Source of the DNA: Lineus longissimus
Taxonomy: Eukaryota; Nemertea; Pilidiophora; Heteronemertea; Lineidae
Length of the DNA: 64,000 nt
Reading direction: 5' to 3'
Assembly (NCBI RefSeq): GCF_910592395.1
Contig: NC_088319.1
Span: 7,998,001-8,062,000 of the forward strand
Shown: positions 10,110-52,463 of the stretch, in pieces
How the letters are laid out: every line of letters starts with the position of its first letter
Position numbering within the stretch: position 1 is the first letter of the stretch
The notes under the pieces: generated by a model
What the model saw: only the letters and a program-made list of their open reading frames with translations
Told to the model about the DNA's origin: nothing
Databases searched by the model: none
Position numbers and translations under genes: made by a program

Positions 10110-10345
10110 CACTGTTAAAAAAAACAGTAGATTTTACAGAACTTTTTGTACAGAATAGTTCTGTAATTCATCAAATCTACATAAGTTCTGTATATTCACT
10201 GCATTTCCCCTATTTATTCGTCCGAATACTGTATTTCATAACTTTCTTATCAGACTGGTTCTTTAATCAATAACCATCGAACGAAATTCTGTATTTGTAC
10301 AGCATTTCACCCGTATCCGTCTTAATATCGTAAGAATACTGTAAA
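10110..10345 (+). repeat. Left terminus with subterminal TCTGTA/TACAGA motifs
   Basis: The first 235 bp contain repeated TTCTGTA/TACAGAA motifs on both strands (about 10133, 10151, 10159, 10187, 10227, 10290, 10299, 10338). CACTA elements carry such subterminal arrays as binding sites for their own proteins. The same motif fills the right end (52150-52463). Confidence 0.65.
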
Positions 10346-10890
10346 GGCCTATACTGAAAATATTTTTTGACGAAATTAGGCTAGATTCTACGTTCTAGGC
10401 CTATAATACATAAAATCGAACACAAATGAATTCTTATTTGCCCCTTGGTCGAAGTATCTCCCCAAGCCCCCCCCCCCCCCCCCCCCAGGACGATTTGCCC
10501 CGAGACGGAAATAACTCCATAACGCCCCGGCCTGCTGGTTGTCTTTCACTGACGAGGGGCAATTTTCAAGGGGAATCGTATCAATCGTCTTGATACCCCG
10601 AATCCATTCAACCATGGAGGTATTACGGTATCATTATATTCCCAACGCCCCGAGGTGGATATGCCCCACCGGCCACTGTCCTGCATTGTTGCGTGACTGG
10701 AATGTTCGGGCCATGGCTCATACGGAATTGTTCACGGCCATCGCATATAAAAAAAGGAGAAAGGCGGAACGGCTGTTCTGCTTTATTTCTACAGATGTTT
10801 TCTGTAGGCCTACCCCAGTTTTCTGTACAAAATCCGTGTTGAACATGCGCATGTATGCTTCCGGTTGGCTTTGTGGACGATAGAGCCTGC
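10346..10890. other. Left-end interior, no gene recognised; poly(C) tract
   Basis: Contains a C-run of about 20 at 10468-10488 and an unsupported open frame on each strand. A splice donor, GATTTG|GTAAGT at 10898/10899, could close a non-coding first exon of the transposase gene that follows. Confidence 0.35.
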
Positions 10891-11808
10891 GTGATTTGGT
10901 AAGTTTCTGTTACAAAATCATGCATAATCCGACGATTGCATTGTGCATAGAGATTGTGTTGTCGGAGAGTGAAAATAAGATAATCAAACAAACGAAGATT
11001 GTGTAAGATTGTATAACTTGCCCTATGATTTTACGCCACAGGCAGTCGGAATGAGCTGCACATGGCTAGGAAGCAGGCAACCATAATGCATTGGCTGCAC
11101 CTGCATGATTCGGCTACAGTGCTGTGCATTAGTACATCATGTAAGGCCTACTACATGCATTGCAAAGCAAGACGGCTCTCTCAGCAGCTGCTCAGTCTCT
11201 GATGCCTGTCCTGTCATGACTGTCATAACTCTGCCTGTGGTAAGCAGGTCCGACGAGTGTGAGATATCAGATATATATACATCACATGCTTGTTATGCTA
11301 GTCCCAGGGCTAGGTCTACCTATACATGTATTGTATGTAGCCCTAGCTGTCACTTCTGTTAACTGTTAGATTAAATAGGCCTATAGTGCACCTATTATCG
11401 CCAGGAGGTGCGTTATAACGAACCGGCAAAATGCACAACGTTATGACAGCTATTATAGGATCTCTGATATTAGGCCTTGGCACAAGTTAGTTAGGCGGAT
11501 TATGTGTCGTATAAATTTTTCTGGTAATCTGTCAATGCCTGTAGGGCCACCTATGGGTGGTTAATCCTGCAAAATAGAAAAATGGAAAATTGGATATTGT
11601 GACAAAATAAAAAAGACAATGGGAAAATAGACAACACTAAAAAAGCCAATCGTAGAAAAGATGACAGTAAATATGACAAAGGAAAAAAAGACAAGGCCGG
11701 GTAAAAAGACGACTTTTGGAAAGTTTATCTCATGTACACAACAGCCTACAGGTACTGATGACTTTGGTCAAATTGTTTTGTAACTTGTCATCTTATTTGT
11801 TCTTTCAG

Positions 11809-14800
11809 CTCGACGCAACTGTGTGTTCCAGACAAGATACTTACTTGTACTGGTATGTATAAATGCAATCATTGTCCGTATAAAGGAAAGTCTCCTATAG
11901 AGTATACACATCATTATGCTATACACCGGCATGTGAATCAAGTGGGCTTTCCTTGTGGTGTTCCTGGGTGTCCAAGAACTTTCAAATTGTATTCAAGTTT
12001 TAGCACACACCTCTCTAGAGATCACCGAAACTACCGACATGTAAGACAAAATGTAGAAGCCAACACTGGTAATTTGCCCATTAGTACTAATAGTGCTGAC
12101 AACGTGAACAACCTGGTCTCTCCGAATCTAACTTGTGACCATTGCAAGAAACTGTGTGATAGTCCTGCAGAAATAATGCGTCATTTGAAGGAACACATCC
12201 GTGAAGGCATAGTAATCAAGTGTCCTATCCATGACTGTTCATCTAAATACAAAGTTGCCTCTTCATTTACATCACATATGTCACGATGTCACAACAGCTG
12301 GTCATTAGGGAATATGGGAAACCAAGGTGATGTGCTTGTTCAAGTTGTTGAAAATGAGAATACTGCAGTAGGACCCATCATACCAGAGGTTAACATTGAA
12401 AATAATGTTGAGCCTGCTTGTCCTGAAGCTGCAGTGATGGACCATGATGGACCAGAAGAGAATGATCCTGGTGATGAAACTGATACTGAAGGTTTATCAG
12501 ACAATGTTTTCTTAGAAAGTGTTGCTTTGTTTTATCTTAAACTTGAGGCAAAATTCCATATACCGCAATCGGCTATCCAAGAGATAGTCACAAGTGTCTG
12601 TGATTTCCACAAGCTTAGCCAATATGAGCTGCAGCTACAGCTTAAGAAACTTCTTTGGGAGGAAGGGGTAACAGATGAAAAAATTGGCTATATTGTTGAA
12701 GATGTTTTCAAGAGTGATTTTTTTGAGATTGTTCATGATGGTACACTTAGGTCGAACTACACAAGGAAGAAATATTACAAAGAAAGTTTTGATTATGTTA
12801 TTCCAGTGTCCGTTGGTTTAGGTAGAGACAAGGACAATATTGACAGGCACTATCATTACGTTCCCATCAAAGAGACAATAACAACACTTTTTAAGGACTT
12901 GACCATGCAGAAGCTGTACGAGTTGAAAAGAGACCCCAAACCTGGTGTATATCAGGATTTTCAAGATGGGGAAGTGTTCAAAACAAACGAATTGTTTGGT
13001 AATGTTCCAGGAGCGCTATCACTTGTTTTATACCAGGATGCCTTCGAAGTTGTGAATCCACTGGGATCATCTAAAATAAAACACAAGATTTTAGCTGTAT
13101 ATTTAACTCTCGGCAACATTTGTCCCCAGCATCGTTCCAAAGTCGAACCTTTGCAACTTGTGCTTTTGTGTCGTGAAAAGGACTTTAAATATTTTAAGAT
13201 GGATAAGATATTTGCTCGCCTTGTATCTGACTTGAAGGACATTGAAGAGCAGGGTCTACAAATTGACTCAAATGATAATGGGAATAAGGTACTCGGGTCT
13301 GTTCTGTTTTTTCTTGGTGATAATTTAGGAAGTCATTGTATAGGAGGTTTTTCAGAGAATTTCTCCACCCAACCATACATGTGTCGGTACTGTCTCATCA
13401 CAAACAAAGAATTTGCTGAGAATCCATTGACGGTGTCAGAACAGAGAACAGTGACCAACTACTCAGCATCCATCGACATTTTAGAAGAAGGTGAAATATC
13501 AATGCACCAAGGGATAGTTAGGGCTTCCCCATTCAACACTTTGAAATATTTACATGTTTGTTCACCTGCTCTGCCACCCTGCTTGGGACATGACTTATTT
13601 GAAGGCATTGTAAGATATGATTTAGCTTTCTTTATAAAGGATTTGGTAAAGAAAGGGTGGTTCAACTATGATTTCCTAAACAGAATGATCAGAAAGGTTT
13701 CACTGAAATTGTTTGATATGAGGGATAAACCTCCAGATCTGAGTAGCAAGGGAGAAAAACTTTCTGGGCATGCCGCAGAAAACTGGTGTCTTCTCAGAAA
13801 TCTCCCTCTTTTCTTGCATTTGAAAGTACAGAACCCTGAGGATGAAACCTGGAAGTTAATTCTTTTACTTCGGGAGATTGTGGAGTTGGTCTGTTCACCC
13901 AAAATTGCTGAAGGACAGGTGGCTTACCTTCTAGTGCTCATTGAGGAGTACCTTAATGAGAGGAAGAATATCTTCCCTGATGTGAAACTTAGGCCAAAAC
14001 ATCACTACCTGATACACTACCCTCGGCTAATTCTTCAGTGTGGACCTCTAATTAGGTCTTGGACAATGCGGTTTGAAAGTAAACACGCCTACTTCAAGAC
14101 TCATGTTCGCCACTGTGCAAACTTCATTAACTTGACAAAATCATTGACAACAAAGCATCAGCTGCTACAAGCATACTTGAGGCAAGGGGAATATTTCTGC
14201 CTTGGTGTTTCAGCAGTATCCTCAATACCATTTCATCCTGAATTGTATACTCCTCCATTGGCTGCTGCTGTTAAGAAATGTGGGATGCATAAGGAGTCGG
14301 ACTTGGTTCATATTTCAGACAAAGTTACCATTGATGGCACCGAATATTGCAAGGGAATGTACTTGGTTATAAGGCATCCTACTGCAGGACGATTCCGCTT
14401 GTATCTGGCTGACATTGTGTCAATGATGATAGACATTGGTGATTCTTCCACATGCCATTTTGTGGTAAAATTGAATATTGGATTGTACAACATGGATCTT
14501 GGTGTTTATGAAGTGGTTTCGATGGCCGAAGCTCATGAAACAACTCACGTGACAAATGCTGATGCAATGGTGTGTCTTGACAGAAGTCGACTACTGGATT
14601 ACCAACCGCTGAATGCTTATCGGATGGATGATAACATGTTCATTGCCCTCAAGCACTCCATTTGTTTTGGGGAAGAATACTAGTGGAACAAAAATTACTT
14701 GGTAAATGTAAATGCACTTTTTGAATTTCGTGTCTCAGAAATTTAGATTTTGACTTTAGCCATTGGCATTGCTGTCACTAGATAATTGTCTCTCATTCAC

Positions 14801-15393: not shown

Positions 15394-15730
15394 ATATATA
15401 TATATATATAATAGCATAACACCCCAAATACGGGGTCTTTTTGTGTATGAAACCTTTCTTGTGGGGTATACCAAAAATATGGGGCATACATAATGCCCCA
15501 CAACTAAAAGCATTACTAACGTGTAGTATGGTCCAAGGGAACCAGTCTGGTGATGTCCCTGATAACTCTGTCTGATATGCACATGGGTGAATTCGTTACT
15601 TTTCCATTCGTTATGTGGCAGCACTGGTATTGTTTTAGCTGCGAGGCATTTTTGTATGTGGGGCATATAAAATTGTGGGCTATTGCCTTTATATATACCC
15701 CATATCTTGGTGAAATCACTGTTCATCTAA
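15394..15730. repeat. GGGGCAT-palindrome repeat family, copy
   Basis: After a (TA)n run come CCCCAAATACGGGG, a GAAACCTTTCTTG block and GGGGCATACATAATGCCCC, then the mirror-image half ending in ...CCCCATATCTTGGTG near 15700. The same words recur at 17395-17665, 29238-29300, 35813-35903, 36345-36730, 38283-38362 and 40415-40700. All the copies I saw are inside the giant element. Confidence 0.7.
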
Positions 15731-15829
15731 ACACAGTCCAGGTTCCCGGCCTATTATTTTCAACATGTAACCAGCTGACTGTGCAGCGCAAGTGGTGACC
15801 ATACACTTGTAAAAATAAGGGGGTAAAAA

Positions 15830-16510
15830 TGTTAGCGGGCCAGATCCAGGAATTTTAGCGGGGGGGGGGGGGGGGTCGAGATGAAGCCCGCGATCTCGGC
15901 GCGCCTACGGCATACCTAGAGCCTCCCCAAGAAAATGTTTCAATCTAGATGCCCCCAGATGGGTTTTCCCGGTATTTGAGAACATCAAAAATAGCAAGAT
16001 TCAGTTTGATTTTAGGATGTTTCAGTGCCGTGGGGGAGGGGGCTGGCAGAGATTCTGGAAGCCAAAAACATTATAAGAGCCGAAAGTCCGACCCAGACGC
16101 TATATGTGTGATCCTTAGAGGTGAGTTCTTGAAAGAAACAACTCGGCGGCTGGGTCAGTCGAGCGCCCGGGTCCTCCCCCCAGGACAATTTGAAATTTAG
16201 AAAACCGCAGATGCGTTTTCCCGACATTTCAGCATCTCATTTTCACAACACTGACTTTTTTGACAAGCCAAATATGGAGGGTGGCCTGCGTTTATTCCTT
16301 GAAAAATAGTGTCGACCATCAAAACGTTTTCTGACAGTGACCTGACCATGTTCCAGTGTTGTGGAAAGTAATCTATGATGTACGAAATGCCACTAGACGC
16401 GACCCGACCGCAGAAGTTGCCGGGCACTTCCCGTGTGCGGAAAACACCTTGACAGCGGAAGACTTTATTGGTAGGGCGGGTTTCGGTCCGATCGAGTTTC
16501 CAACATGACT
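15830..16510 (+). repeat. Dispersed repeat A (inverted partner at 39530-40110)
   Basis: Begins near CAGATCCAGGAATTTTAGC plus a G-run of about 17, then GTCGAGATG; continues through GGTATTTGAGAACATCAAAA and GACATTTCAGCATCTCATTT to TTTCCACAACACTGG-like sequence near 16350. The same words appear reversed at 39530-40110. Non-coding; class unknown. Confidence 0.7.
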
Positions 16511-17886
16511 CGTGGTCAGGGAGAGGCTTACTCAGTCTTTTACCAAGATTACGGTTATGAAGGGATGTCGTTACTTAGGCTGTCTCGTCGCGGAAAATCG
16601 ATGTATAAATCTTTGGTGGTCGAGAGCAGGGGGGGGGGCTGGATCCGCCCCTGGTAAGCACATGAAATAATCCAACTTAGACCGAACAATGTTGCAAGTG
16701 GATAGTATAAGCAATGCATGGTTCGACGTTTAAAATGAACTACTTGTAATCATTATTTCGAGGTTTAGAAAAAAAGTGAACCGTGAACCAGGTAGTGTTC
16801 CATAATAAAACGGAAAACCAAGTGAGGACCATCCTCCCTTAGCAAGGTAAGCTGGTATTCTTAATACCCTTACATAGTTGTGTAAAGGCCTGAGGAGAAC
16901 TGAGCTAAAAAGCCTGCTCAATAGTAAGATGTGACATCCCATAGTCAGAATTCGCTGAAGATCTCTCCACTTGTGTGAGTGACAATCATCCGACGACCAT
17001 TTCACCAAAGATCAGTGGCTTCAAATGCTGAATTATGATGCAGAAAAATGTTATCAAGACACTTTCATTTTTATTTGAGCAACATTTTATCACGAAATCT
17101 CTAATTTTGTGTAATTAAGCCGAATCAAGAGGAAATCCTGGGAAAATGGAATATGTTGCATGGTGACTTAGGACCGGTATATCACCCAAAACATTTAATT
17201 TTGACTAAGAGCAAGTTTGAATATTGGCTCGGTTGCCAACTAAACCAGTTTTTCATATTTATAAATCCTGTTGCACAGTGCCAGCTAATGAAAGGAGGCA
17301 GATTTATAGAAATCTTTGTGTTGAGTTACCTATTTTCACAGTCGCTCAATGAATTTGGGTTTATGACTTCCTTTCCTATACACGCTGTACATATATATGC
17401 CCCTCAAAAAATGCCACTTATTTCGGTATAATCTGCATATTGATGATAGTTTTCTATATTTAGCCTGATATGTATATATGCCCTGAAATTTTCCAACCTC
17501 GTGAAATTGCTTGGTTTTGAGAGAGGAATCTTTCCCAATTACTGTACTGTGCTGCCACCTTAAAAAGTGACTGTGCAGATTGAAACCAATTATTACGGGG
17601 CATTTTTACAAATGAAACCTTTCTTGCGGGACATATATAAATCACGGGGCATATATAATGGCCTTGCATAATGTTTAATGGGAAGGATACCAACTTTATG
17701 TCAACAAGCACCGAAACGGACCTCCCTTGGACTGCCAGCCCCTTCAATAGTGAAATGAATGTCAACAATAGAGAAAGTCAAGAGAAGTGTTCATTGTCGA
17801 AACGAGGAGTAGGCCTACATCTGATACAAACATGAGGTTGAACAACAAATGCCCAGAAGTGCAATCGCAATTGGTTGATAGTTATA
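16511..17886. other. No gene recognised; GGGGCAT repeat pieces
   Basis: Contains the GGGGCAT family at 17395-17665 (ATGCCCTGAAATT..., ACGGGGCATATATAATG). The remaining open frames show no motifs. Confidence 0.4.
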
Positions 17887-18323
17887 AACTACAGGCCAAA
17901 AGTTTGGGACCACCCTTCAAAATTCTTCTCATTTCCAATAAATCCTTTCTATCCTCATAGTGTCAAGTCATTGAACCAATTGATATTAATATTTCTATCT
18001 TCAGTTATGTATCTGATTTCTCTTCAGGACATTTTAGTTGTTTCACTGTTGGTACTTTGGGCACTGAGAACATTTTTTAAAGGAAGGAATTCATTTCAAT
18101 TGATTTCTCAATTGCTATTTGCTGTCCTCTTTCAAAATGGCCCCATAGACAAAACTACTGGTAAAAAACAACCAAGTTTAGCCTGAAGATGCATCAGTTG
18201 CATATCCACACAGAAACAGAAAGATCTGTCAATAGCCTGAGGTGCAGTGACTTGTGGATAAAAGGGATTTATTGGAAATAAGTAGGATTTTGAAGGGTGG
18301 CCCTAAACTTTTGGCCTATAGTG
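17887..18323. mobile_element. Tc1/mariner-like MITE, 437 bp
   Basis: Inverted ends of about 38 bp: left starts AACTACAGGCCAAAAGTTTG, right (inverted) starts CACTATAGGCCAAAAGTTTA; both run on to a GGGTGG/CCACCC block and a TTTTGAAGGG block. TA flanks both sides (17885-17886, 18324-18325), the Tc1/mariner target duplication. No transposase: the open frame inside has no motif. Confidence 0.85.
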
Positions 18324-18989
18324 TATTACAGCTAGGTTGTCATCCATTTGTCGGAAATTCACCACAATAGACGACGTACATAATCTACCTGCGGCGGACA
18401 CCTTTAGTGTCTTGTTTGAGATGAAAATATTGCGAAATAGCTGGCTACTTACCACACCCAGCCAAGACACCGTTTTAATATTATCAATGTGTAGACTGAT
18501 CTTGTTTGACTTGTAGTTTGCCTTAAGTCAAGCCACCTTTGTTACTAATGCTAATCGTCAACATTGCCCTTGGTTGTGACATTTCTGTATAGCATGCAAC
18601 GATCGTACGATCGAAGGTTCTTCGCAGACATTATGCTCTCCAACAACACTAGTGTTCTGGCTAAGATATGTAAACGTCTGCGCATTGGTCATCATCTGTG
18701 GGCAGAATGATTGAAATTTCTCAAACCGTGGGCGTACTTGAGTGGCAACGAAAAATGGAGCTTCTCTCAGAAATTCTGTACAATGGTTAAATTCAGTGGA
18801 ATTATGATCATTGTCCGATACAATCAAAGACAAGACAAAGACAAAGACAAGCGCAGAAGAACGTCATAAAGAACAATGTCTTCGGTCGGGATTGCGTACA
18901 TGCTTTCCCATTATTATAAAAGCCATCATTTGTTGACTATAACGACTTGTGTGGGCGTCACGTCCGTGGAGACGTCGTAATATGCGAGT
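18324..18989. other. No gene recognised
   Basis: I see no coding signature, RNA gene or strong repeat beyond a short GACAAAGACAAAGACAAG run at 18831-18851. Confidence 0.35.
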
Positions 18990-19223
18990 CAGGGCCCGGT
19001 TGCTCAATCAGCGTTAACACCAAAGTTTGTGTTAACGCCCGCTTTAAAATATAGCTTATGTAACGTTGAATAATGTTGATTATGTCAATTTGTGTATGGA
19101 AAACAGCAGTTTTGAGTTAGATACCATTTCAACTAAAACAAGCTCTTACATTAGTGAGATTTAAGCTAGCGTTAGGGCTAACGTTGGTGGTAGTGTTAAC
19201 GTTAATTGTGCAGCCGGGCCCTG
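18990..19223. mobile_element. Short MITE with CAGGGCCCGG ends, 234 bp
   Basis: Left end CAGGGCCCGGTTGCTCAAT, right end inverted CAGGGCCCGGCTGCACAAT. The middle contains several GTTAAC/GTTAACG palindromes. No clear target duplication was seen. Superfamily not assigned. Confidence 0.75.
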
Positions 19224-20455
19224 AAAAAAAAATTTTGTTTATGGAAAACATTTCCTCCAAAAAATATCATATGCGACCTTTAAAATGAGGGCCAGTAAAG
19301 CCACTAGATGGCCAAATTTGTTTCCGAGAGGTTTCGTTCTTTAAGCCTATACCTGTATGGCCTGTAGGTCCCGCTCCGAAAGTTTTCGCTGGACTTTATT
19401 TGGAAATGTTCTCGGAACGGGATAGCAAAACGTACCTCTTACGACGGCGTTCTCGTTTTGTGCAGTCAGGGACGCGGTGGGGTTGCGGCAGAGGCAGACC
19501 TGGGTCATCCCCGCCGGAGGTGATTTTTTGACTTTCCGGTAAAAAAAGAAATTATGTAGGGGAAAAATAGGGATAAAAAGGCCTGTGTATAGACCATGAG
19601 TCGGGAGCAAGATCTTTAATGAGCCCAAGTTTGCAAATTGTGAAAAAAACTCAGTCGATTGTCCCCTGCGGCCGATCCATCCGAAAACACTCTTATTTGG
19701 CTTCGATTGAGTTTTTGATGCTGGCCAGTCATGCAGTATCGGAGATGACCTAGCTTGAATACCTTGGGGCATGCTTTGACATTCCCAGCAAAGAACGCAC
19801 TCTTCGGAGGCTACAACTGGCCATTATTTTTGGCATCTAGCAGCTTATTGACCTTCATTTTGAGGTCGCATGCAAATTTCGAAGAAAAATAATGTTTCAG
19901 GTTATAGGCCCTTTGAACCCTTTGAGCCGCGTGGGTTGTGGTCCTCCTAATCTCTACGTGAAGGTATTTTGCAGTGACATTTTACTGCATGGCTTTCAGT
20001 CTACACAAATCGGTCTCAGTAGTTTTGTGGCGTCTTTGTCTTCGCGAATTACGCGAAAATATTTTTTTTTGTCTTCAAGAAGGTTGTGACCAGGAAATTG
20101 CATTTTTGGCACTTTTCTCGGCTCTCCGTGGTTAAAATGACGTGGCAAATGTTGTCATTCTGGGCTGGCTTTTCTTAGACAACCGACGACACCCCCCCCC
20201 CCCCGGGCGACGACCCTAACCCTTTTTTATTTTTGAAGGAACTTAAGACAATTTTTAGGCCTAGGCCTGATTATTGGACGTATAGGCCTATACGGTAACA
20301 CGTTCAGGAAAAGGAAGAGTGGCTTTTTCATCGGCAATATAGCTTGGATATCCACGTTAATCCCTTAATCTACCGACCAAACCCCCGTTAGTGCCTTCAG
20401 TCAACAACACGTATGGCCATTATATGGCCATTACATTTCTATCCCCGACATTTAT
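19224..20455. other. No gene recognised; poly(C) tract
   Basis: Only unsupported open frames (e.g. minus 19347-19772). A C-run of about 14 bp lies at 20191-20204. Confidence 0.35.
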
Positions 20456-20828
20456 CCCTACTATAAAAACAATTTTCTAGGGTGTCCAATGGTGTTCTAG
20501 GGTGTTCTAAGGTTTTTGTTCCAAAATACCCTTTGCTGAGAGGTGCTCTATACTAAGTGGTATCTCTTAATGTGTTCAAGGGATCTCTCGGGTTTTCTAG
20601 GGTGCTCTAGGGCACAGGGACATGTGTCGTGAGTTAAGGGGCCGGGGGGATTTTTATCCCTTGGGTTGTTTTATGTTTTTTGGCCCCCGAACCCCGAATG
20701 AGCTCATATTTACCTCACGAAACATACCCCCTGTGTTCTAGGGAATACCACTTGGAACAAAAACCTTAGAACACCCTATGAGAACACCCTGGGACACCCT
20801 AGCTAGAAAATTATTTTTAGTAGGCCCC
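20456..20828. mobile_element. Foldback/MITE element with about 70-bp inverted ends
   Basis: Left arm (TTTTCTAGGGTGTCCAATGG then TTCTAGGGTGTTCTAAGG and TTTTTGTTCCA) is mirrored on the right (TGGAACAAAAACCTTAGAAC ... GGGACACCCTAG then GAAAATTATTTTTAG). The middle has further GGTGCTCTAGGG repeats. Non-coding. Confidence 0.75.
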
Positions 20829-21141
20829 TACGGGAATTGAGGCATTGGTAATAATGGCTTTATGATTTCACCGGCGAATTTTCTCCCTAACCAACCATGG
20901 AGGTATTACCGCCATGAACCAACGGAGTACTGGGTAAATTGACCCATTTTTCTGCAAATCGGTCCCCTTGGCAAGGGGCCTTTCTCTGGGGGGGGGGGGG
21001 GGGAGCATCGAGGTTGGCCAGTCAGTCGAAGAAGATTTTGAGACCTGAGACCGTTCCTGACCTATAGGGCTACGTCATCATCGAACCACGCCAGCTCCGC
21101 GCCTAGATGCAGTGTAAAAAAATTCCAATCCAATGCATGCC

Positions 21142-38276: not shown

Positions 38277-38570
38277 GTGGTTGTGGGGCATTATGTATGC
38301 CCCATAGTTTTGAAATGTCCCGCAAGAAAGGTTTGATTCTTAGAAGTACCCTGTAATTGGGATGGGCTATTTTAATTAGGAATGTACACAAAGTATACAA
38401 TTTCTTTATTTTTGGAAATATTTTAATCACACATGTTGGCAGATGTAAGAGGGAAATGTGGGTTGTAGTAAAGAACTGTACGAGTTTCAAAGAGCACATC
38501 ATATCAATATTACCTTGATCATTTTGTAGTTCTATATTTTAATCAAATCTGTTTTATGTTTTACTCTTTA

Positions 38571-38576
38571 AATAAA
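38571..38576 (+). terminator. AATAAA polyadenylation signal of the SET gene
   Basis: AATAAA 295 bp after the stop codon at 38276, in a T-rich setting (ACTCTTTAAATAAAAG). Confidence 0.5.
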
Positions 38577-39530: not shown

Positions 39531-40110
39531 ACCCCCCCCCCCCCCCCCCCCCGAGTCATTTTGGAAACTCGGGCCGAAACTCATCCTACCAATTAAGTCT
39601 TCTCGACCACGTGTTCTTCTGCGGTCGGGTCGCGCCTAATTATATTAAAATTTTTGTACATCATGGATTACTTTCCACAACACTGGAACATGGTCAGGTC
39701 ACTGTCAGAAAAAGTTTTGAAGTTCGTCACTATTTTTCCAAGGAAAAAAGCAAGCTCGTAGGAGCAGGGGGCAGCTGCCCCCCCCCCCCATATTTGGCTT
39801 GTCAGTGTTGTGAAAATGAGAGTGCTGAAATGTCGGTAAAACGCATCTGCGGTCTTTAAATTTCAATTTTTTCCGGGGACAGTGATCAGACCCCCTCCCC
39901 CCCGCTGGCGGTTCACCTATACATCCCCACCCTGAGCCGGACCTTTAAACAGTGAATGTTTTATTGAAGAACCCACCTCAGCCCCCTCCCATCCCAAGTC
40001 GTTCCTACGGCCCTGAAACATCCTAAAATCAACTGAATCTTGCAATTTTTGATGTTCTCAAATACCGGAAAACCCATCTCGACCGCCCCCTGCTGAAATT
40101 CCTGGATCCA
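39530..40110 (-). repeat. Dispersed repeat A, inverted copy
   Basis: Shares, in reverse, the words of 15830-16510 (e.g. TTTTTGATGTTCTCAAATACC, CGGTCGAGATGGG-type end, TTTCCACAACACTGG). It has a C-run of about 21 at 39532-39552 and a second C-run at 39779-39789. Confidence 0.7.
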
Positions 40111-43100
40111 CCCCTGCGCCTGATACCTAAGTTTAAGGAGACTGGGAGTGTTGGAGACAATAATATTGGTCGACCATTTCAGAGGTTACTAAGGAACATT
40201 CCGGCAGACATGATTGCAAGAGTCTGTTCGTGTTGCTGCCCTGGATATAGCACATTAATATCAATCATTGAAATTTGACTACCTAAAAAGTTTCTAATTT
40301 CTGCAAAATGGTGATCCTTATGAAAGAATTTGGTGAAAGAAAATTGGAAATATCTTAATTGTATCAAAATTGAGATGGAAAGTAAAATAGGTCGTTTTTT
40401 GATGGACATAATTATGGGGTATATAGGGACACAACCTTAAAAGAATAATTAATAGTGTGACCCCAGGTGGCAGCAGTATACAGTAAAATTCTCTCAAACA
40501 GATTGTCAAAACAAGCCCAATTACGGTGGTGGAAAATTGCAGGGCATATAGTAGTGGGAAATTGGTGGGCATATATATTGTATATATGTTGTTGGACATA
40601 TAAATGAGTGGGGTATATATAATATATATAATATATACAACCTCTGTATGTAGGTTTGATTTTCATGCGGGATTTCTAGGTCTCATTTCAATACCCCATA
40701 ATTGGCACTGTACGCCTATATATATATATATACAAAATAAACATGGGAGTAGAGTAAGAAGTCAGCAAATATGAACAGTACAAAAAGATAAGGAATATGG
40801 ATGGCAATGATTAGACTTAACCAGTAAGATATTGGAGAATTATACATATACAATGATTGTAATCACAAGTTGTAATCATAAGAAATGAAAGTATAAAAGT
40901 TATGTAGTAGAGAGATATTATGATGGTATTTTCTTCCAGTGCACTGATCTCTTGTAGAGGAGTGGTGATGACAGGTGGTGGTACATGTGCGAATGGTAGA
41001 GTTGGCATGGCTTGAATCCTGGCACTTGATGTTAACTTTATATCCTTCTTGTCAGGGCTATCCTTGGAAGTAATTGTGGAGTGCGTCAAAACAGCAAAAC
41101 TCATTGCAGTTGTAATAGAAGTGATCTCCATTTTCTGTCTCTGTCGGATCTGACAAAAAATTTTCTGGAACATCCTTCACCTCCCTCTGCTGCGATTATC
41201 AACGAGTTCTTTAAACTGCGTAACTCTATATTGTCCTGATTTCCATTATTATGTTTTTGTCTTTAAATATTTGTGATCTTATTTTGTATACCCTGTAACT
41301 TTATATTGTATATCTTGTAATCATTTTATGTTACCGTTGGCCCCTAGTGGGCGTTTTATAGTCTGGGCTCCTGACCTCACTCTCGCTGTCGTAGGTCAGG
41401 CAATAAAAAAAATCTATAAATAGATAGCTTAAACCACCATTTCCACAAAAATTCTTATGCCTAAATTTTTTTAATATTATGAAAAACCTATCCTGCAAAA
41501 ACCAACGCAATCGGTCAAGGTTTAGCGTCCCAAATCGTACTTTTGCGAAAATGACAATATCGCTAAAAGTGACGTCATTATATGGGGAAACCCCTTTGTC
41601 TGAAACATGAATAACCGTAATCGCGCATTTTAAGAGTAATTCCGGTATTTCTACAGTGTAGAATGATGTGTTCAATAATAGTGCATAATCCTAGAACAGA
41701 TACAGCGCTCAATTCGACCGTAAAACGATAATTGGCTCGGGAAATTACAACAATGGCTGAATCTAAAAATAACACTCCTCTTTTCTGCCGTGTTATTTGT
41801 AGACGGTTGTTGTTACCTGACCCGATCCTAACCCTACCAAAAGCCCGGAGATTGAGGTCAGAGAACCAGACTATTTAGCGTTTTAGAGTAATAAAGAATT
41901 TGAATTTGAATTTGAATTTTTCCACCGCTGTACCTTATTATCATAATTATGCCCACGTGATTAGCTGCTCGGTATTGACGAGCAAGTGACAGTCCTCATT
42001 TGCATGTACATTAATGTCATTATTATGGCTGACGCGATCCTGTAAAGTTGTGCGTAATTTCTAATTTCTCGGCAAATACTTGATTGGTTTCGTTGAAATT
42101 TGAGAGTATTACAGATTAGATTACTGCTTACCTTGGGTCTTCGTAGTTTCTTCATACATCATCGATAAAGACACGTAGCTTTGTGAAGAAACTCACCATA
42201 CTGCTCGCTGGCCAGCACAACATTCCTGCATGCTACGTATACACGCTCATCAATTTTGAGCTCCCAATTAATAATTTTATTCATTTCGCATTTTACATGA
42301 GACGAAGGACTTAATGAACAAGATAACGAACTTTAATGAAAACTTAAGTTTTATTACAATAGGACAAATACTGGCAACGCAATTTGCATTTCAATTCAAC
42401 AACTGCCGAGCATCCTAGGGCTAAAACTATCTTCATTCATAGTCAATCTCGCCATTTAGCTAAACGGACCTGAAACAAATCGATTCAGCGTCTACACTTT
42501 TACTCCGATTTGTCTCAAAATTGGTGACAAAGAGGCTGAATGTACTGCAAACAATTCCTCGGAACCAAATTTTAAAAAAAATTATTTTAAAGATATTTTT
42601 TAGTGTAAAATGCCCGTTGCTAGGCATGGTTGCTAGGCACATGCTGCCACAAACATAATGACAGAACCTGACAATAAGGGTCTGCTCTCGCGACGACCAA
42701 TATGACTAGCAAATTACCCGTGTTACGGGCATGTTAAGGTGGGATAATTCAAGAACAACAAACTACTGGCCTACACCGCTATTACCCCTTCCCTACCCCT
42801 CCGGCTGGTGGAGAGAACTTTTGACACCCCCACCCCTCTCTAAACTGGCGGAAAGCTGTTTTGTCAGCCTCCCCGTGCCATGCTAATAATGCCACATTTT
42901 ACCTGTTGGGAGAATGAAGTGATCAGAACTTAAAACCCTTATTGGGGGCATACACATGTAGCTAGCTTTTTGGTCGGGGGGGGGGGGGGGGAAAAGGTTC
43001 TCTGGAGAGGCAAAATGATCCTTTTTGACATTTTTCGGCCAAAATCATGTTTTTTTTGCTGAAAACCTAGGGTAACCCACAGGCTCTGTTGGTATGAAGT

Positions 43101-43192: not shown

Positions 43193-46100
43193 AATCGATT
43201 CGATGGATACTGATGTTGTTCTGGAAGCTGGTGGTAGTGCGGTGCAGCCAGTGTCGGTGCAAATGGATGACAGAAGCAGAACCTCCACGCCAGAACCTCT
43301 CAAAAGCTTTCTCGCAAAGGTGTTCCCGAGCTTTGGTGAAGATGAGATAGGCAAAGTGAAACTAGAACTTGATCAACTTGGTTGTTATGAGCCATCAGAC
43401 CTACAGTACGCTACCGAGGGCGACCTCAAGTTCTTAAAGCCCCTACAGAAAAGGAGACTCCTAAGTGCTGCGAATGAGTGTTAGTATTTATACCATAGCT
43501 TATACCTGCAAGCAGTCAAGAACCATGTACATGTTGTAATGTTGTTGTCAATTGAAATAGCTTAAATCAGATTATCATGGAGATCTTCCCTTACTGTTAT
43601 TTGTGGATTCAGACTGGTGTGTACTGACTCCAACAAAAGTTGATTACTTAGAAATACAATCCATCCTTATCCACTGGGGTCACGCAAATCATGCCTTCCC
43701 ATATTTGTGTGAAGCTGGTTTCATGAATGAACAAATGAAGCGCTTCGAAGCAGAGTGGGCTAACCCACATTCATTTTTTGTCCAAGTCATTTTGTTGAAG
43801 TCATTTGATGATATAAAAAACTGCCAGGGTGTTTTATGATTATTGTTGTTATTCTGTAAAACATTGTACATAGAAATCAGATATTGCGGATTAGTCTCCT
43901 CTGTCAAGTACAAAGGTATACAAAAATTGTCCCATAATGGGCTTGACTGAAATTTTTAAGGTTTGGAGTTAGCCAACTCTGCTTCTAGGCTGTTCAAGTG
44001 TTATTCTAGAACTATGAAGTGGCATCATTATTCTCTTTCCAGGTTGTGGTACAACTGCTGCAGAAAGAAGTACACTTAGCCTGCCCTCCTCGATTTCCAG
44101 TGTATCTGCCAATGCTGTCGATGTAGTTCCAGAAACAGACATAGAAGATTGTTCCCCCGAGTTCTGCATTCCATGGAGCAAGTTCCCAAAGGCACTAATG
44201 ACAAACTGCAAACGCGGCATGAGGCCAACACCAAGTGAGAGACGCGATCTTATAGGTTTAATCGGTGGTGACATGATGGCACTGGGCTGTACGAAACGTG
44301 CGACCATTAAACGAGTTGCGAAGGATATTGTCGCGAAGTACCCTGAATCGTTAGAGGATAAAAACACGGACGGGAGGAGACTGGGTAATGGGTATCAGTC
44401 GCTCTTTACAAAGTTGGAAAATAAGATCTACAATGAAGGTCAGAAAAAGAGACGGCTACAGAGACAAAGTGAACTAAAAACAGGAGAGGCACCCAAACGT
44501 AAGGCCCAAGATGATGACAATAAAGGTCGCTATGGTTGCATTGAACACCAGTGGAAGCCAAAGATGCCTGAAGGAGAGACAATCCAAACGCAAGAAGAGA
44601 AGTAGGGTACGTTAAAAAGCTTTGGTTCTGAATATGACTCCGAAGAAGTCGCCCGCCTGATGAGTGAAACCTACTTCCTGCAACGGAAGAATATATGTGA
44701 GAACTTAACGGTGAAAGAACTGATGGAAGAGTGCCCATTCCTTTTCAAGTACGAATGTCTTTCAGTACACTTCGAACATCTAACGGGGATTAAGATTGAT
44801 TCGGCATTTGAAGAATCGCTCGTTGCCCGCAATAAGGGTTTCAGAATTTGGGAATTCCTGAGCTCACCTGTAAAACCAACATCCTTCTTGTTTGGTTGAT
44901 CTTTAAACAGCCGGACAACAGGATTCGTCTATATGCTTCTTTATTGGATCAGTCTTGTTGTACATAGATTATTGTGGACCTCGTCTACTCTGGTCTATCC
45001 TGACCTCTGATCTCTGTCTGTTAGAACTAGGAATCAAGCTAGAATTTATATCATTTTGTGTTTTGTTTTAGGTTACTAATGACATGAATGACCAAAATAA
45101 GGAACTCAATTCAGAGAATTGAGTGGGCGAATACGCCAAACATTCTGTAGTCATGGGGTTGTTTCTAAGAGAGACTAGCTTTAAGTCCTAGCAATCATCA
45201 ACATTCTGTTAGTCATATGTATCGAACCACAACATACACCTACAACTTCTAGGAACTTGACCAGTGACGCACGGGTAAAGCTAAGTCCAGCCGGAAGTTT
45301 GGCAAGACTTTGGTCACCCATGTTGTGGTAACAACGTGGTTATATCGACGATCCCCATACGTAATACCAACATGGAATGCCTAATCCAGTTCCTTGTTGT
45401 AGAAATACAAGCCTAGCAGTGGTTCTAACATAGGGCTAACAACACAATTAATAATGACAATTTAACTAAATTAAATACAACCAAATATACCCTTGGTATC
45501 ACCTGCATCTGGTTTGAAGAAATTGGACAAACTGAAAACTTGGATTTCACTGGTGAAGGATGAGGTAAAAGCAACAAAGAATATACAACCACAGTGCCAG
45601 GCGGTGGTACTCATGCTTATGCATTACTTTGAAGAAGATGAGGGTGTACTCTTCCGCTTCTATGGGGTAAGTGATATTCTTGAATTTGTTATGTCTGACT
45701 CCATAGTCAGCCTAGGACATACATAGGCTATGTGTTCTGTAACTGCTCCACCAGGCCATCCATACACTGCAGGCGAAAATCCTGTGCCTAACTTCTATGA
45801 CCCAGCCCCTGGTAAGCGAAAGTCATAAAATTATGTTCACCAGCCCATATTCGTGTAGGATACTTGGATGGAAAAGGTCAACCATGGTCTGGCCGGCAAA
45901 TGTCAACACTGCTAGTATTTGGTTTCTGACATTTTCCTTTAAAAAGTGTAAAGCAAGAAAATTAGCCATATTGAATTACTTTACTTCCAGGTCACTGGTA
46001 ATAGACAGGCAGTCGAAAAAGATGAAGAAAAACCCCAGACACCATTTATTGCAGTCATTGATAAGTGTGGATAAACCATGATTTAAATTTATATAGTCTC

Positions 46101-49004
46101 AGTCTATTACAATCCACTATAAACTATAGACTATCCACTATAGACTCGCAAGCCAGTCGGTGACCTCACTCCGTCCGGCAATCTGGGTTCCCCACGAGAC
46201 TGGCAAAGTGAGCATTCACCTCGGCTTGAATCACAGCAACCACAACTCTGGTATAGTGCCGGCTATGCCGTTGAGAAAATCAAATACCGCTCCTTGAATA
46301 GCCAGCCTTTTCATTGGCTCAAAAAAAGTGTTGTGGTTGTCGTGATTTGAGCTGTGGTGAATTCTGCTCGCTTTGCCGAACGGCAGACGGAGCAAAGACC
46401 CAGACTGGGCATCCGGAACTAAGGCCAACACTTGGCACTAACGATCGAGCTTGTGCCCTGAATAGACCCGCAAGCTTCCAGCGGGATTACCGGCTGTTCT
46501 CTTAAAATCACAACACCCACGCGGTTTAATGATAAAATGTGTACATGTACCATTTGTTGCCTCAACCACATTTCAAGTGAATATACTGTAAACTGCTCCC
46601 TTTGCTCAATAAGTCATATTCTGTACATTGCTTGTCTCAATTGACACTTATATGGTTCTTTTGAGATATTTCTCGAGGTTTTTCTCCGATTGCGAGGGGA
46701 GGAGGAATGCTCATCTCAAGCTAGTGCAATTACAGGGAATTCCGCAGCTGCGTCCCAAGTTTTTTCCTATATCAGCCAATAAAAGCGAGTTTTACAAAAT
46801 GCTTTTGTTTTCCATAGTAACTGAGTTCCAAGGAAAATATGTAAGAACTGTTTTGATTGGGCATAGTAGATTTGTCCGCCTCATCCCACGAATAACCTTC
46901 GGGTTACTCCAGGCATGCCAGGGTCAGCAACGTGCGCGAGGGAAGGAGGATAGGACTGACTCTGGATTTTCGATGATGCCAACCGGGTTGCTAGTCTAGA
47001 TATGACTCAGCAGAGCTAGAGCCAAGTATGTGTTCCATTCATAAAAATAGCACCAATTTCTTTAATTCCTTTTCAAGGTGATCCCCGTGATATCTTCAGT
47101 GGAAGGTTCCTGTTCTACCTCGTTGTCGAAAACGAAATTGTGAATGATCAGCTGAAAACATTCTTTGAAGCTTTGGTTGTCGTCTTCGCATCATTTTATG
47201 TCCTGTATATTCAGTACCCTGGAGGAGCTGAAATTACACTGGAATTCATTCAGAGGTGAGCTGGTGTGACTTTGTTCATTGAGGATGTTTTCCTTCTATG
47301 GTAATTTGATAAAATAATATTGAGAACTTCTTTCACATTTGTATGGTCTTGATACGAAGTATGCACGCCAAATATTGGACAATTGTGGTATAAAGCATGA
47401 AAACAAGAGGCCCAAGGGCCTGGTGCTCAGCTGAGTTAATATCATTAATATCTTCCCGGTGTTTAGTTCATTATGCATGAAAATGGCATGCTCCATGGTA
47501 TTTGATATCCTTTTGCGTTCACTACGGTACCAATGTTTTTGGTTGACATAATTATGCCACTGTTCATTCCTCAATCCTGACCATAATTCGGGTGAAATCA
47601 TCGTATGAAAATATTTACCGAAACATGAAGTTTATGCCATGAATGAGCATACTCATTGTCATAGCCTCGTTAATTACAAGTACGAAGTATTTTCCCGCGA
47701 ATATTCAAAACTGCTTGGCTCCTTGCCAGTTAAATAACATGTAACTATACACAAAATAGAAAACTTTGATGGAAATTGTAAATCATTTTTTTATCTATCA
47801 GGGGAAACACGCTGATGATGATAAAATAAATCATTCATGAGAAATCGTTTTGTTGCTGAAGCTTGCATGACGAAGTTGATGCTAAACCTTTTCTTGTGCT
47901 CTACTGCGCCACCGTAGTTTTCTATTTAGACCAGCGATGACGTCATTTCTGGTGATTCTCAACGCTGTCCAATGAGCGCTTTTTAAAATGTGCCATTTGG
48001 TATTGTACAGTATGCAATGTATTTTTTCAGCGCTGCCAGTTGCCGAACAGAATGCCGTAGCTCCCTCAATTTCCAATCAATTTTTATGGGAGTGACATTA
48101 TTGTATTGCTTAGAATGTCTACTTTTTACTCATGAAAGAATCGTAGAACTAAAACTTAATAGGCGAACAGAATCATGCCGATTCACTGCACATACTGTGG
48201 GAATTCTCCACTTCAAAATACATCGGCGATGTCATCGCGAACAGAGCATGCACTTCCGATATCGTTTTCACAGAAATGTGACCAAATTTTCAAGAACTAA
48301 TTTCTGAAAGTAGTCCCTAAAGAGCTAATGACTACCACTGAAACGAACTGGTGATAATATCGCCTACCAGACTACTTTTTAAGCAGAAAATTGGGTACCT
48401 GAGTGTCATTGAGCTCCAAGATTATTGCACATGGCGTAAACAACATGCCCCCATTTTGTCTCCGCTTCGGTATTTCGTACGCCGCTTATAATGCACCTTC
48501 TCAATTAAAACCAACATAATAAGGCCTTACATCGTTGATTGAATAAGAACACCACACAAAACACAATAAAGTGGGGGTACAATCGATTACGAAGCCGAAG
48601 TGAACAGTGATTATTCCTGGAGCTACTGCTTTTGTTGTGTAGCTGCCATGTTTTGAGACCTGGCAAATAGGAGACTTCATTGATGGCTGACGTCATCGGG
48701 CGGGAATTTGAATCGGCAGAAATAATTAAAAGGCAGGTAGCGCCCTCTCCTGTTAAAATTTTGAACTTTTTCTCAATAAAATAGATTTTCAAGAATTTTA
48801 TCTTAATATTAGAGCATATTTCGACTAATTCTGCTGCTCCTAGGCCGATATAGGCCAGTTTCCTTCATGCACTCTCGCTCGCAGGAAATAGGTCGAATGG
48901 CGACAAATTTTGTTTTGAAAGTAGAGTTTGACCAGAAGTATCCAGAAATGCAAAATTGAAGTCTCTAGGTCTTACTGTTACAAAATGTGCACCATGGGTT
49001 TAAC

Positions 49005-49038
<34 letters not shown>

Positions 49039-49421
49039 ATGGATGGACAGACTGACGCCACTGAACAACTTATTTGACAAGCTCGGCTGAGCTGAGCTAA
49101 AAACAACTTGATATTCCTGCTGTTCCTTTGTCATTTTATTACCCAGTAAGTTGGGTGTTTTCTACTCGGCTCTACTCTTAATGATGCTGAAAGGATATTC
49201 CCTGATTCATATGCAGGGGACGAACAACCAGTGGATGTTGTGACCTTTTAAGCTGACGACAACAGTCTGTTGATTTTTTCAGGGAACTTGTCGGAATCAA
49301 TCCTGATAATACGAACACAAAACGGAAGAAGCATGCCAAGAAGTCGCCAATTCATCCAAGGATTGTCAGTTTGTTTAATGGAATTCGGGACTTTGAGTCC
49401 GATTGGGGATGCCCAATGTAG
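43193..49421 (+). CDS. SAMD3-like SAM-domain gene (6 exons), with in-frame TAG
   Basis: Exons: 43193-43479 (ATG 43203), 44043-44869, 45520-45666, 45755-45811, 47078-47255, 49283-49421, with GT-AG borders. Exon 1 encodes a SAM-like domain (LKSFLAKVFPSFGEDEIG...DLKFLKPLQKRRLL). Exon 2 has the conserved W-x-KFP...MRPTPSERRDLIGLI and LGNGYQSLFTKLENKI block. Later exons give YFEEDEGVLFRF, then FLFYLVVENEIV, LYIQYPGGAEITLEFIQR, ELVGINPD and FNGIRDFESDWG, the order seen in SAMD3-like proteins expanded in fish and invertebrates. A TAG at 44603-44605 splits exon 2 in an otherwise continuous frame, and the frame of exon 45520-45666 does not match the next (one base short). The function of the family is unknown. 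It lies inside the giant element, so it is probably cargo. Confidence 0.7.
46145..46440. repeat. Inverted-repeat element in a SAM-gene intron
   Basis: Arms around 46201-46250 (ACTGGCAAAGTGAGCATTCA ... AACCACAACTC) and 46326-46382 (GTGTTGTGGTTGTCGTG ... CTCGCTTTGCCG) are inverted copies. A partial relative lies at 51356-51470. MITE-like. Confidence 0.65.
47403..49105 (+). repeat. Hairpin-ended repeat, 1.7-kb copy, in a SAM-gene intron
   Basis: Starts AGAGGCCCAAGGGCCTGGTG CTCAGCTGAG and ends GGCTGAGCTGAGCTAAAAA, the same design as 25290-26446, with a (GGAT)n run at about 49010-49048 near the right end in place of (GAC)n. It lies in intron 47256-49282. The interior shows no coding motif. Confidence 0.6.
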
Positions 49422-49679: not shown

Positions 49680-51350
49680 AATGATTTAGATTTCCCACTC
49701 AGTTGTAATCAAGATCTAAGTTCTTATTTCGGACTTCCAGTATACATGTTGGAATCCTGGTTGGCCTTCCAAATGTTGATGTTTATGGCATCTGTACAAG
49801 TTCAAGTGTATGAATCGGGGTATGAATATCATCAGGGAAACTTGTAATTTTAAGATAAGTTCTTATTTTGGACTTTCGGTATAGGAATCCTTGACGTTTA
49901 TGACATATGTACAGGTTCAAGTGTTGTATGAACATCATTACAGAGTAGGGAAATTTGGGTATCTCACCCGGTTGTAATCAAGATCTAAGTTCTTATTTTG
50001 GACTTCCAGTATTGGAGTCCTAAATTACCTTCCAAATGTTGACGTTTATAGCATATGTACAAGTTGAAGTGCCACAGTGGGTTTTAACAGCAGAAAAGTC
50101 AGAAAAAAAGATAATACAATGAGACCTATGCATCATTGTAGCCTGTACAATAAGGAACAACTTGGTGAAAAAAATCTGATTTGAAAATTTTGTTTTACTT
50201 GAGTTTTTTTATATCATGTACATTTCCCTGTATTTCAATGTACTACTAATACAGGGCTTCATGTAGTTTTTTCAGTCTCAGTTTTTGACCCTACAACAAT
50301 GTTGAAAGCTAATTTCACTAAGTTATCCATGAGCCTGGGACTGAAACAATTACCGGTGTATGGGGTCAATATTTGTAAAATTTATAATAAGGTATTTTAC
50401 TCCTTTAGGTTGGACATTAATCGGAAACACTGAAATATGACAAATTTGAGCAAATCAAAATACCAATAACGCCATGTTGTATTTTAATCTGCTGTGTTTA
50501 TAGAGTAGTTCCATGCAGTCCCTGGCTTCATGGAAAATAAATATGAATTCAACATTGGTTTAGTGTCAAAAACTAAGTTCGAAAAACCAATTGGAGCCCC
50601 ACATTAGTAGTACATTGAAGTACAGAGAAATGTACACGATACAAAAAACACAAAGCAAAATTTTCTAATCAGAATTTTTCACCAAGTTGTTCCTTATTGT
50701 ACAGGCTACAATGGTGCACAAGTCTCATTGTATTATCTTTTTTGTGACCTTTCTGCTGCAAAAACCCTCTGTTGTGTTGTATGAATATTATTATCGAAGT
50801 TCAGATGTCTCACTCAGTTGTAATTACGATTTAAGTTCCCTACCTCCAGTGTAGGAAATCTGAAATTGTAAAATAATGTTTGATTGGGCCTTCCCAATGT
50901 TGACGTTTATGCCCAGAAAGGCATTTTCAAGTTCAAGTGTTGTACTAGTATATCATAAGGGAAATTTATATTTTTTACTCAGTTGTGATTTTAAGATTTA
51001 AGTTCTTATTTGGGACTTTCCAGTGTGGGAATCCTGAAATTGTAAAATAATCTTTGATTGGGCCTTCCCAATGTTGACGTTTATGCCCAGAAAGGCATTT
51101 CCAAGTTCAATTGTTGTACTAGTATATCATAAGGGAAATTTAGATTTTTTTACTCAGTTGTAATTTTAAGATTTAGGTTCTTATTTGGGACTTCCAGTGT
51201 GGGAATCCTGAAATTGGAAAATAATCTTTGATTATTGTTGATTTGGCCTCCACAATGTTGACGTTTATGCCGGGCATTTATGGCATTTACAAGTTCAAGT
51301 GTTGTATTAGTATATCATTATAGGGAAATATAGATTTCTCACTCAGTTGT
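49680..51350 (+). repeat. Degenerate tandem repeats, unit about 140-190 bp
   Basis: At least six units share CACTCAGTTGTAAT, AAGATCTAAGTTCTTATTT and GGACTTCCAGT..GGAATCC, then AATGTTGACGTTTATG and AAGTTCAAGTGT (near 49690, 49850, 49970, 50815, 50985, 51155, 51335). The array is split by the foldback element at 50093-50758. Confidence 0.85.
50093..50758. mobile_element. Foldback element with arms of about 170 bp
   Basis: The left arm (CAGCAGAAAAGTCAG ... GATAATACAATGAGAC ... TGTACAATAAGGAACAAC ... TACATTTCCCTGTA) is mirrored at the right (TACAGAGAAATGTACA ... GTTGTTCCTTATTGTACA ... GTCTCATTGTATTATC ... TTTCTGCTG). It is inserted in a tandem-repeat unit. No coding. Confidence 0.85.
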
Positions 51351-52149
51351 AATTTAGTCTCGCTAGCCAGTTTGAGTTGGTATCTTTGCTCTGTGCACCA
51401 ATCGATGCACCCCACACGACTGGCAAAGCGTGCAGCGTTCACCATGGCTCGAATGACGATAAAGTTTCTATATCCATGGTGTTTGCGGATCCTTAAAAGT
51501 TCTTAAAAAGTCAGGTATTGGACCCCCAGTCATTTAGGGCCTGAGAAGTCCATAAAATTACCAATATCTGTCTAGAATGGTCATAAAGGTCATGAATCAT
51601 ATAGTTCTTGCTCTTCTCAAAGAAAAATGATACAATAGAAAAGCTTTTGTGTTGTTTTAATCAAAACTTCAAACCTCCTTTCTTGTAAAAGTCAGCCACT
51701 ATGTAAACAGTGCTATTGAAAGCACATAAACAGTGCATTGCCCGTGTTGACAGAGTGCTTGGATGTAAATTTGACAGCTAGCAAAACGTATTTAATAGCT
51801 GGTGATATTTGGTTTTTTCAGTTTTAATTCTGAGAGGATGTTTTTGTTATAGTTCCTCATGTTTGTGGGGGAACTATGTAGATGACGAGTGTTTGGACCA
51901 GGAAGATGTTGGGAATATACTAACTATTGGCTTAAACGGAATAGACAAAATGGTTACATGTCGGCGTAGGTCATAAATTTAGGGTAAAAAGTGGTCATGA
52001 AAGGTCATAAATTGGTTCCTCTGTCAACTGCATACCATGTGAATATGTTGATAATTTGTTGAATAAATGTCTAAAATGAAGAATTATTTTTCATATTTGT
52101 CTTTTCTAAGTACATCTATGTACTATTCCGTTTTATCTTCATTTGCCTG

Positions 52150-52463
52150 CAGGAGAGTGTTGAGAACTATTCTGTTTTTTTACAGAATTTGTGATAACTG
52201 TAAATTGATTATAATATGAATGAAATCTGCAAATCTACAGAAATTTGCCTGTAGCAGAGTCTCTGGCACCTTTCTGTATCTTTACAGATATCTGTAAATT
52301 TAAAAGTGGTGTTCCTATAACCAATTTACAGATATCTGTAAAATATAATTACAGATGATATAACTTTAGTAATTTACAGACTAGTTGTAAAAATACAGAA
52401 TCGTTCAAGAGACTCTGCTGCAGGCACTTTTCTGTAAAATTACAGGAGGTTTTTCTAACAGTG
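52150..52463 (+). repeat. Right terminus of the giant element with TCTGTA/TACAGA array
   Basis: Dense TTTACAGA/TCTGTAAA motifs on both strands, an inner inverted pair (TGCCTGTAGCAGAGTCTC at 52246 against GAGACTCTGCTGCAGGCA at 52409), and the end ...CTAACAGTG at 52463. Confidence 0.7.

Follow-up and report, generated by a model that had tools for sequence, protein, structure and literature searches.

In plant En/Spm transposons, which belong to the CACTA superfamily, both element-encoded proteins are needed for movement (PMC1636069). Animal elements of the TRC/CACTA type are represented in the same report by a 9.2-kb example from Aedes and by more than one encoded protein, for the second of which a DNA-binding role similar to that of TNPA was expected (DeMarco et al., 2006; PMC1636069). 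Copies of SmTRC1 were reported there with 2-bp direct repeats in 7 of 14 cases. An insertion that invites comparison with these systems lies in a 64-kb stretch of the genome of the ribbon worm Lineus longissimus, hereafter the window, at C12:7998001-8062000 of an assembly of 391,118,348 bases that was searched as a whole (other C-numbers denote its other contigs). The initial annotation described a 42-kb part of the window as a giant CACTA transposon carrying a SET methyltransferase gene and a SAM-domain gene as cargo. The analysis reported here very strongly favours another account, in which the 42-kb stretch is one CACTA/EnSpm insertion in the relic of a long interspersed nuclear element (LINE), belongs to a low-copy Lineus family encoding a transposase and a SAM-like protein, and owes its size mostly to nested repeats, chiefly a SET-bearing repeat that likely inserted on its own.

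One insertion in a LINE relic

The 42-kb stretch is a single CACTA-type insertion, bounded exactly by its two ends and later than the LINE that it interrupts. The first base of the element opens CACTGTTA and the last base closes TAACAGTG, with a TA duplicated on either side (Table 1). When the flanks were joined minus one TA, a single open LINE frame resulted (...KQGGVLLPILFS/IYTEKMLQSLNG...LAYEDDVVL) without loss of a codon, as the initial annotation had stated. The joined piece matched Pfam RVT_1 across the junction (E 8.5e-5, under Pfam's curated cut-off), and neither half alone gave a Pfam match. The annotation had also named an origin of the two halves from different LINE copies as a way in which the single insertion could fail. 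This is not the case, because other copies matched both sides in one run: the best, at C2:11172420-11172626, at 90%, and copies at C3:13461734, C3:11481757 and C4:12256817 at 81-83%. In three of these aligned copies the junction was gapless (C2 and C3:11481757) or held four additional bases (C3:13461734). The right LINE half is broken again at 52560-53395; the repeat responsible is also present at 59062-61716 and next to the sister element at C6:13.9 Mb.

Both ends carry the similar subterminal arrays noticed earlier, with 8 CTGTA/TACAG motifs in the left 300 bases and 14 in the right 300, against a mean of 0.75 per 300 bases. At least eight such motifs were found in 9 of 1274 sliding windows of the 64 kb, all nine at the element's two ends. 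The perfectly shared terminus is short, comprising eight bases followed by an A-run shared in part.

The EnSpm-type transposase that had been placed just inside the left end was recovered as one long open frame, 99% identical to the L. longissimus protein LOC135496511. Close relatives of this transposase also occur in other genomes, sea urchin and Nothobranchius among them. CMC transposases are defined as DDE transposases with C(2)C and H(3-4)H motifs between the second D and the last E (PMC12730594). In an alignment with 27 of the 120 listed homologs, residues D416, D510, C531, C534, H737, H738, H742 and E762 were invariant, so that CMC-type DDE motifs are present, the putative catalytic D and E residues being assigned by reading. 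Pfam Transposase_21 matched the window protein at E 0.066 and a sea urchin homolog (P0003) at E 0.00022, both under the curated cut-off. The termini are of the CA..TG type, here CACTG..CAGTG, in the window element and its four full-length sisters alike, and the target site duplication is 2 bp long in all five, inside the 2-5 bp range of the CMCT clade. Subterminal repeat arrays are present, as in CACTA/EnSpm elements (CMC group). Of 112 pattern matches in viral contigs, none was a relative.

Table 1. Features of the window and full-length sister elements (window positions unless a contig is given; +, - strand)
Feature	Position	Strand	Remarks
CACTA/EnSpm-type element with nested insertions	10110..52463	+	42354 bp; termini, 2-bp target site duplication, LINE continuity
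Left target site duplication TA	10108..10109	.	
Right target site duplication TA	52464..52465	.	
LINE relic, left part (reverse transcriptase frame)	9961..10109	+	
LINE relic, right part	52466..52580	+	
Left terminus and subterminal CTGTA/TACAG array	10110..10409	+	8 motifs; terminus matched at four other places
Right terminus and subterminal CTGTA/TACAG array	52164..52463	+	14 motifs; 88-89% over ~300 bases at C15 (two places) and C6:13918597
Transposase open frame, C2H2-like N-terminus and CMC-type DDE domain	11762..14683	+	973 codons stop to stop
Separate SET-bearing mobile repeat	15395..40716	+	25322 bp; between transposase and SAM-like gene
992-bp high-copy repeat inside SET repeat	21277..22268	+	
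1.15-kb repeat, left arm of inverted pair	25289..26447	+	
1.15-kb repeat, right arm of inverted pair	32884..34030	-	
KMT5A-like SET gene	24502..38275	+	nine exons, boundaries approximate
SET exons	~24502-24592, 28183-28347, 29453-29629 (out of frame), 30239-30269, 31033-31106, 32670-32787, 34294-34391, 35196-35323, 37715-38275		
2-kb repeat adjoining SET repeat	40717..42703	+	three near-full matches at 99%; many copies of 41082-42703 part at 97-98%
SAM-like partner gene	43203..49418	+	seven exons, boundaries approximate
SAM-like exons	~43203-43475, 44041-44602, 44606-44896, 45496-45660, 45963-46062, 47077-47256, 49281-49418		
Tandem array near right end	49681..51354	+	unit ~175 bases in right part; region unaligned in closest sister
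Sister element	C11:5562420-5575474		13.1 kb; both ends
Sister element	C11:5589012-5599241		10.2 kb; both ends
Sister element	C1:11919002-11935652		16.7 kb; both ends
Sister element	C6:8907208-8944967		37.8 kb; both ends

A family with a transposase and a SAM-like partner gene

Sister elements were found via the left 301 bases, which matched four other places; the 140 kb around them was read and held four elements with both ends (Table 1). Their target site duplications are TA, TA, CA and TG, which with the TA of the window makes five of five, compared with a random 2-base match rate of 0.068. Each of the four encodes the transposase and the SAM-like gene in the same order and on the same strand as in the window. 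The two termini are thus not separate short miniature inverted-repeat elements, an outcome against which the initial annotation had warned. None of the four matched the SET queries. The 37.8-kb sister is piecewise 93-99% alike to the 13.1-kb copy, which indicates that long copies of this CACTA family arise by nesting.

The closest sister lies at C6:13.894-13.920 Mb and has 94% nucleotide identity to the window in the transposase. It passes from the equivalent of window base 14728, after 95 bases, to that of base 43958, and further stretches are collinear with the window through the right end, several window segments being absent. The right end of the window's own subfamily occurs at three other places (Table 1). 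Weaker right-end matches include C3:11061180, C17:3283245 and C15:2147858, which may be shorter relatives.

The genome-wide transposase search returned at least 49 matches (47 of 147 candidates scored), corresponding to at least 35 loci. These were divided by the authors' own cut-off of at least 38% identity into a close group of at least 16 loci and a distant group (27-32%) of at least 19. The SAM-like protein search gave 57 matches (72 of 72 candidates scored) at 17 loci. Of the 16 close transposase loci found, 15 are followed on their own strand by a SAM-like gene; the gap measures 218-4634 bases at 14 loci and 28523 bases in the window. Two SAM-like loci on C15 are without a transposase, and both run into the family's right end ~1.2 kb downstream. 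Because it follows 14 of the 15 other close transposases within 0.2-4.6 kb, the SAM-like gene is the second gene of the family itself, not cargo. The distant transposases are likewise CACTA-type, many with long open frames, and a SAM-like gene lies within 50 kb of 2 of the 19 and otherwise near none.

The SAM-like protein appears to be constrained: for exon 2, the ratio of nonsynonymous to synonymous substitution rates (dN/dS) between the window and a C11 copy was ~0.25 over 180 codons, a rough value because dS is 2.6. The window protein had no Pfam match, and a sister SAM exon matched Pfam SAM_TNK at E 0.0059, under the cut-off. The best Foldseek match for exon 1 was the SAM domain of SASH1 (probability 0.96, E 0.21, TM 0.47). 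The model of exon 2 was of low confidence (mean pLDDT 65) and had no usable match in the PDB. A protein of the fish Clinocottus (P0146) aligns to the middle part of the SAM-like protein at 29%. By analogy, the conserved SAM-like partner is a candidate counterpart of plant TnpA. Among the titles and abstracts listed from a limited open-access library, none dealt with animal CACTA elements that have a SAM-like partner or carry a SET gene.

The SET-bearing repeat between the two genes

The second spliced gene of the interior lies on a repeat of its own. With window segments 14690-25280 (best 39 of 775 candidates scored) and 34040-43180 (best 40 of 595) as DNA queries, positions 15395-25045 and 34040-40732 were found to be 97-99% identical, over the whole or a large part, to places on C20, C16, C1 and C3, and the copies on these four other chromosomes are without the CACTA transposase. 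The left border ATAGCATAACACCCC follows TA-rich DNA in all four left flanks read (window, C20, C16 and C1), and the right border GCACTGTACGCC precedes TA-rich DNA in three of five right flanks read (window, C3 and C20). Since both borders lie in TA-rich DNA, they are uncertain by a few bases. Beyond them the flanking DNA differs from copy to copy; the C3 stretch upstream of the known match did not match the window. The termini are loosely alike as inverted repeats, by reading, and a target site duplication is unreadable within the TA runs. Because it has its own termini and copies elsewhere without this transposase, the SET repeat is, as judged from sequence, a mobile repeat separate from the CACTA element.

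In the window the SET repeat measures 25.3 kb, or 22.0 kb minus the three repeats nested within it. Two of these form the inverted 1.15-kb pair, whose arms are 97-99% alike and stand on either side of SET exons; related copies occur in the C1 and C6 sisters. Coordinate spacing suggests that the right arm is absent from the C3 copy of the SET repeat. A short inverted-repeat element at 17881-18329, also inside the SET repeat, has 77-base arms that are 86% complementary. A relative on C5 (C5:16954001-16974000, 20 kb read), a locus of SET subfamily 1, has SET exons and 520-base spaced repeats with GGGGCAT motifs, is without a long frame, and gives a 78% match to the region of the left terminus of the SET repeat in the window.

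The predicted product of the nine-exon gene matched the Pfam SET domain at E 4e-17, and the top 14 matches in a PDB search were KMT5A/SETD8 chains (best E 4.2e-22). In a midpoint-rooted tree of 23 sequences (24 aligned, P0123 being left out as too short), 12 canonical KMT5A-type sequences grouped with support 97, apart from the window group, while the window sequence, P0122, P0138 and fish sequences were united at support 71. The window gene and its mobile relatives read VND where KMT5A has its NHS motif. The gene is hence classed as KMT5A-related, outside the canonical KMT5A clade, and its product as histone-methyltransferase-like. With P0122 as query, 113 exon matches were obtained genome-wide (129 of 129 candidates scored), including eight near-identical loci of a second subfamily. 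Between the mobile subfamilies (C5 against C3, 117 codons) dN/dS was 0.09 at a dS of 1.8, with no alignment of the intervening intron; the gene is under purifying selection.

The initial annotation was right that two spliced genes lie inside the element, and did not remark that both are interrupted. In the window the SET gene loses its reading frame in the second SET exon, near 29500, where copies on C1, C3, C16 and C20 keep it open; the SAM-like gene is broken by an in-frame TAG at 44603. The window copy, with both genes interrupted, is now probably immobile or poorly mobile.

Other, nested repeated DNA makes up about two thirds of the 42,000 bases. Without the SET repeat and the adjoining 2-kb repeat, the element would measure 15045 bp, with a transposase-to-SAM gap of 1210 bases, like the sisters. 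With the SAM-like gene belonging to the family itself and the SET gene to a separate repeat, and with the 2-kb repeat supplying the remaining length, the locus is understood as an animal CACTA family of two genes in which nesting has enlarged one copy. Elsewhere in the window, a LINE endonuclease frame (8268-9086, minus strand) matched Pfam Exo_endo_phos_2 at E 1e-12. By reading of their translations, an open frame at 5083-5514 (minus strand) is like a Harbinger-type DDE transposase or nuclease, and frames at 55766-58627 and 62358-63595 resemble pol pieces of long terminal repeat retroelements.

Alternative explanations and known systems

The cargo interpretation, in which a giant CACTA transposon 42 kb long moves as a unit with the SET and SAM-like genes as its cargo, is very unlikely. 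All parts do lie between one pair of ends at one LINE site, the three genes share a strand, and a 37.8-kb sister with both ends exists, though its length looks like nesting. However, the SET queries matched none of the full-length sisters, the SET repeat has its own termini and occurs elsewhere, and the SAM-like gene is found with or without SET. From the exon matches, 35 SET places (the window and 34 others) were picked by hand, one per locus as judged. Only that of the window lies less than 15 kb from a close-group transposase (0 of the 34 others), the nearest of the remainder being C2:16137277, 41 kb upstream of one. That place, the distant transposase at C6:9411626, which sits 26 kb from a SET place, and the two distant transposases near a SAM-like locus are awkward fits that are read, without proof, as neighbourhood. 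A second 42-kb composite with the same three genes, which the initial annotation had proposed to look for, was not seen among the SET places compared, and a past transposition of the entire 42-kb composite, though conceivable, is unsupported. The proposed cargo-mobilising system is therefore abandoned.

It is scarcely credible that a macrotransposon is present instead, with two short CACTA copies or miniature elements flanking ordinary host DNA and their outer ends used once. The LINE firmly dates only the outer ends, and the exact CACTGTTA occurs also at 24390, but no inner subterminal array exists between the ends, and none at 24390. A composite of two short CACTA copies was rejected on the same absence of inner arrays and on an interior collinear with the sisters (transposase, SAM-like gene and right end). 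A misjoin of LINE, CACTA and SET DNA in the assembly is extremely unlikely. Repeats are prone to such errors, and the point was judged without reads, but the LINE halves continue each other to the base, as in uninterrupted copies, and every nested border has independent copies elsewhere. The assembly is described as built from 79-fold long reads and Hi-C (PMC8593623), which also counts against a misjoin.

Several observations weigh against the preferred account of a two-gene element enlarged by nesting. As to the SET repeat, the match of the C16 copy ends at window position 40634, without the right terminus there, and this terminus was not found in the C1 stretch read. Its open frames reach at most 203 codons and no transposase was recognised among them, small exons not having been searched against all families. 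It could also have joined the CACTA element before the landing in the LINE. The closest sister is without the left end and SAM exon 1; it showed no SET match, 12.5 kb between its two fetched stretches being covered by the SET search only. The transposase locus counts are lower bounds divided at an author-chosen cut-off, and one of the 16 close loci, C6:8159766, is without a SAM-like match. The SAM label of the partner protein is weakly supported, and its DNA binding is putative, by analogy.

According to the preferred account, a two-gene CACTA element would have entered the LINE relic through a cut-and-paste mechanism. For such movement the DDE transposase is predicted to act on the CACTGTTA ends, and the SAM-like protein may assist by binding to the subterminal CTGTA arrays or by assembling there, like TnpA in plant Spm. 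The SET repeat, presumably moved by machinery encoded elsewhere, would have landed in the spacer of ~1.2 kb that separates transposase and SAM-like gene, probably once this copy was already in the LINE. The 2-kb repeat would also have inserted in the spacer, and smaller repeats would have swollen the remainder.

With the claimed giant cargo transposon removed, the locus illustrates that comparing sister elements separates cargo from nesting, and it offers two leads. One is that animal CACTA transposases have a partner gene which is conserved, whereas DeMarco et al. (2006; PMC1636069) could find no conserved second protein. The other is a SET methyltransferase gene that is mobile and has a dN/dS near 0.09; the element carrying it seems to need its own chromatin enzyme. 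A tentative and rather doubtful extension would hold both that the counterpart of plant TnpA missing in animals is the SAM-like partner, which has stayed paired with the transposase from ribbon worms to fish, and that a KMT5A-derived methyltransferase gene is the sole gene of its own 22-25-kb transposon family, which borrows a transposase and keeps the enzyme under selection, perhaps marking its own chromatin.

Among described systems, SmTRC1 and the animal TRC elements share with the Lineus element the CACTA superfamily, 2-bp duplications and more than one protein, as reported in PMC1636069. Their termini are given there with a CCC core, in contrast to CACTG in Lineus, and their second protein as not conserved across other animals, whereas the SAM-like protein is kept across diverged Lineus sisters. 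Plant En/Spm (TnpA, TnpD) is described with CACT ends, subterminal repeats and two element-encoded proteins (PMC1636069), as here; the Lineus second protein, however, is encoded by separate exons that lie 3' of the transposase frame, and no sequence link to TnpA is claimed. Oversized CACTA elements are also reported from the red alga Chondrus crispus, with En/Spm of 16-20 kb and four to five open reading frames (PMC6431247). In the account given there the extra frames are family features, while in Lineus the added length comes from repeats nested in a single copy. A SET histone methyltransferase gene on mobile DNA is likewise described for the HarbingerS and MuDR families of Phytophthora (PMC12730594); in contrast, no transposase is seen in the SET repeat of Lineus, whose SET gene is KMT5A-related. 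Finally, chromatin- or DNA-modifying genes occur on the TET/JBP-carrying DNA transposons of fungi, EnSpm included, according to the same source (PMC12730594), where the modifying gene is part of the transposon; in Lineus it lies on a separate repeat nested within one.

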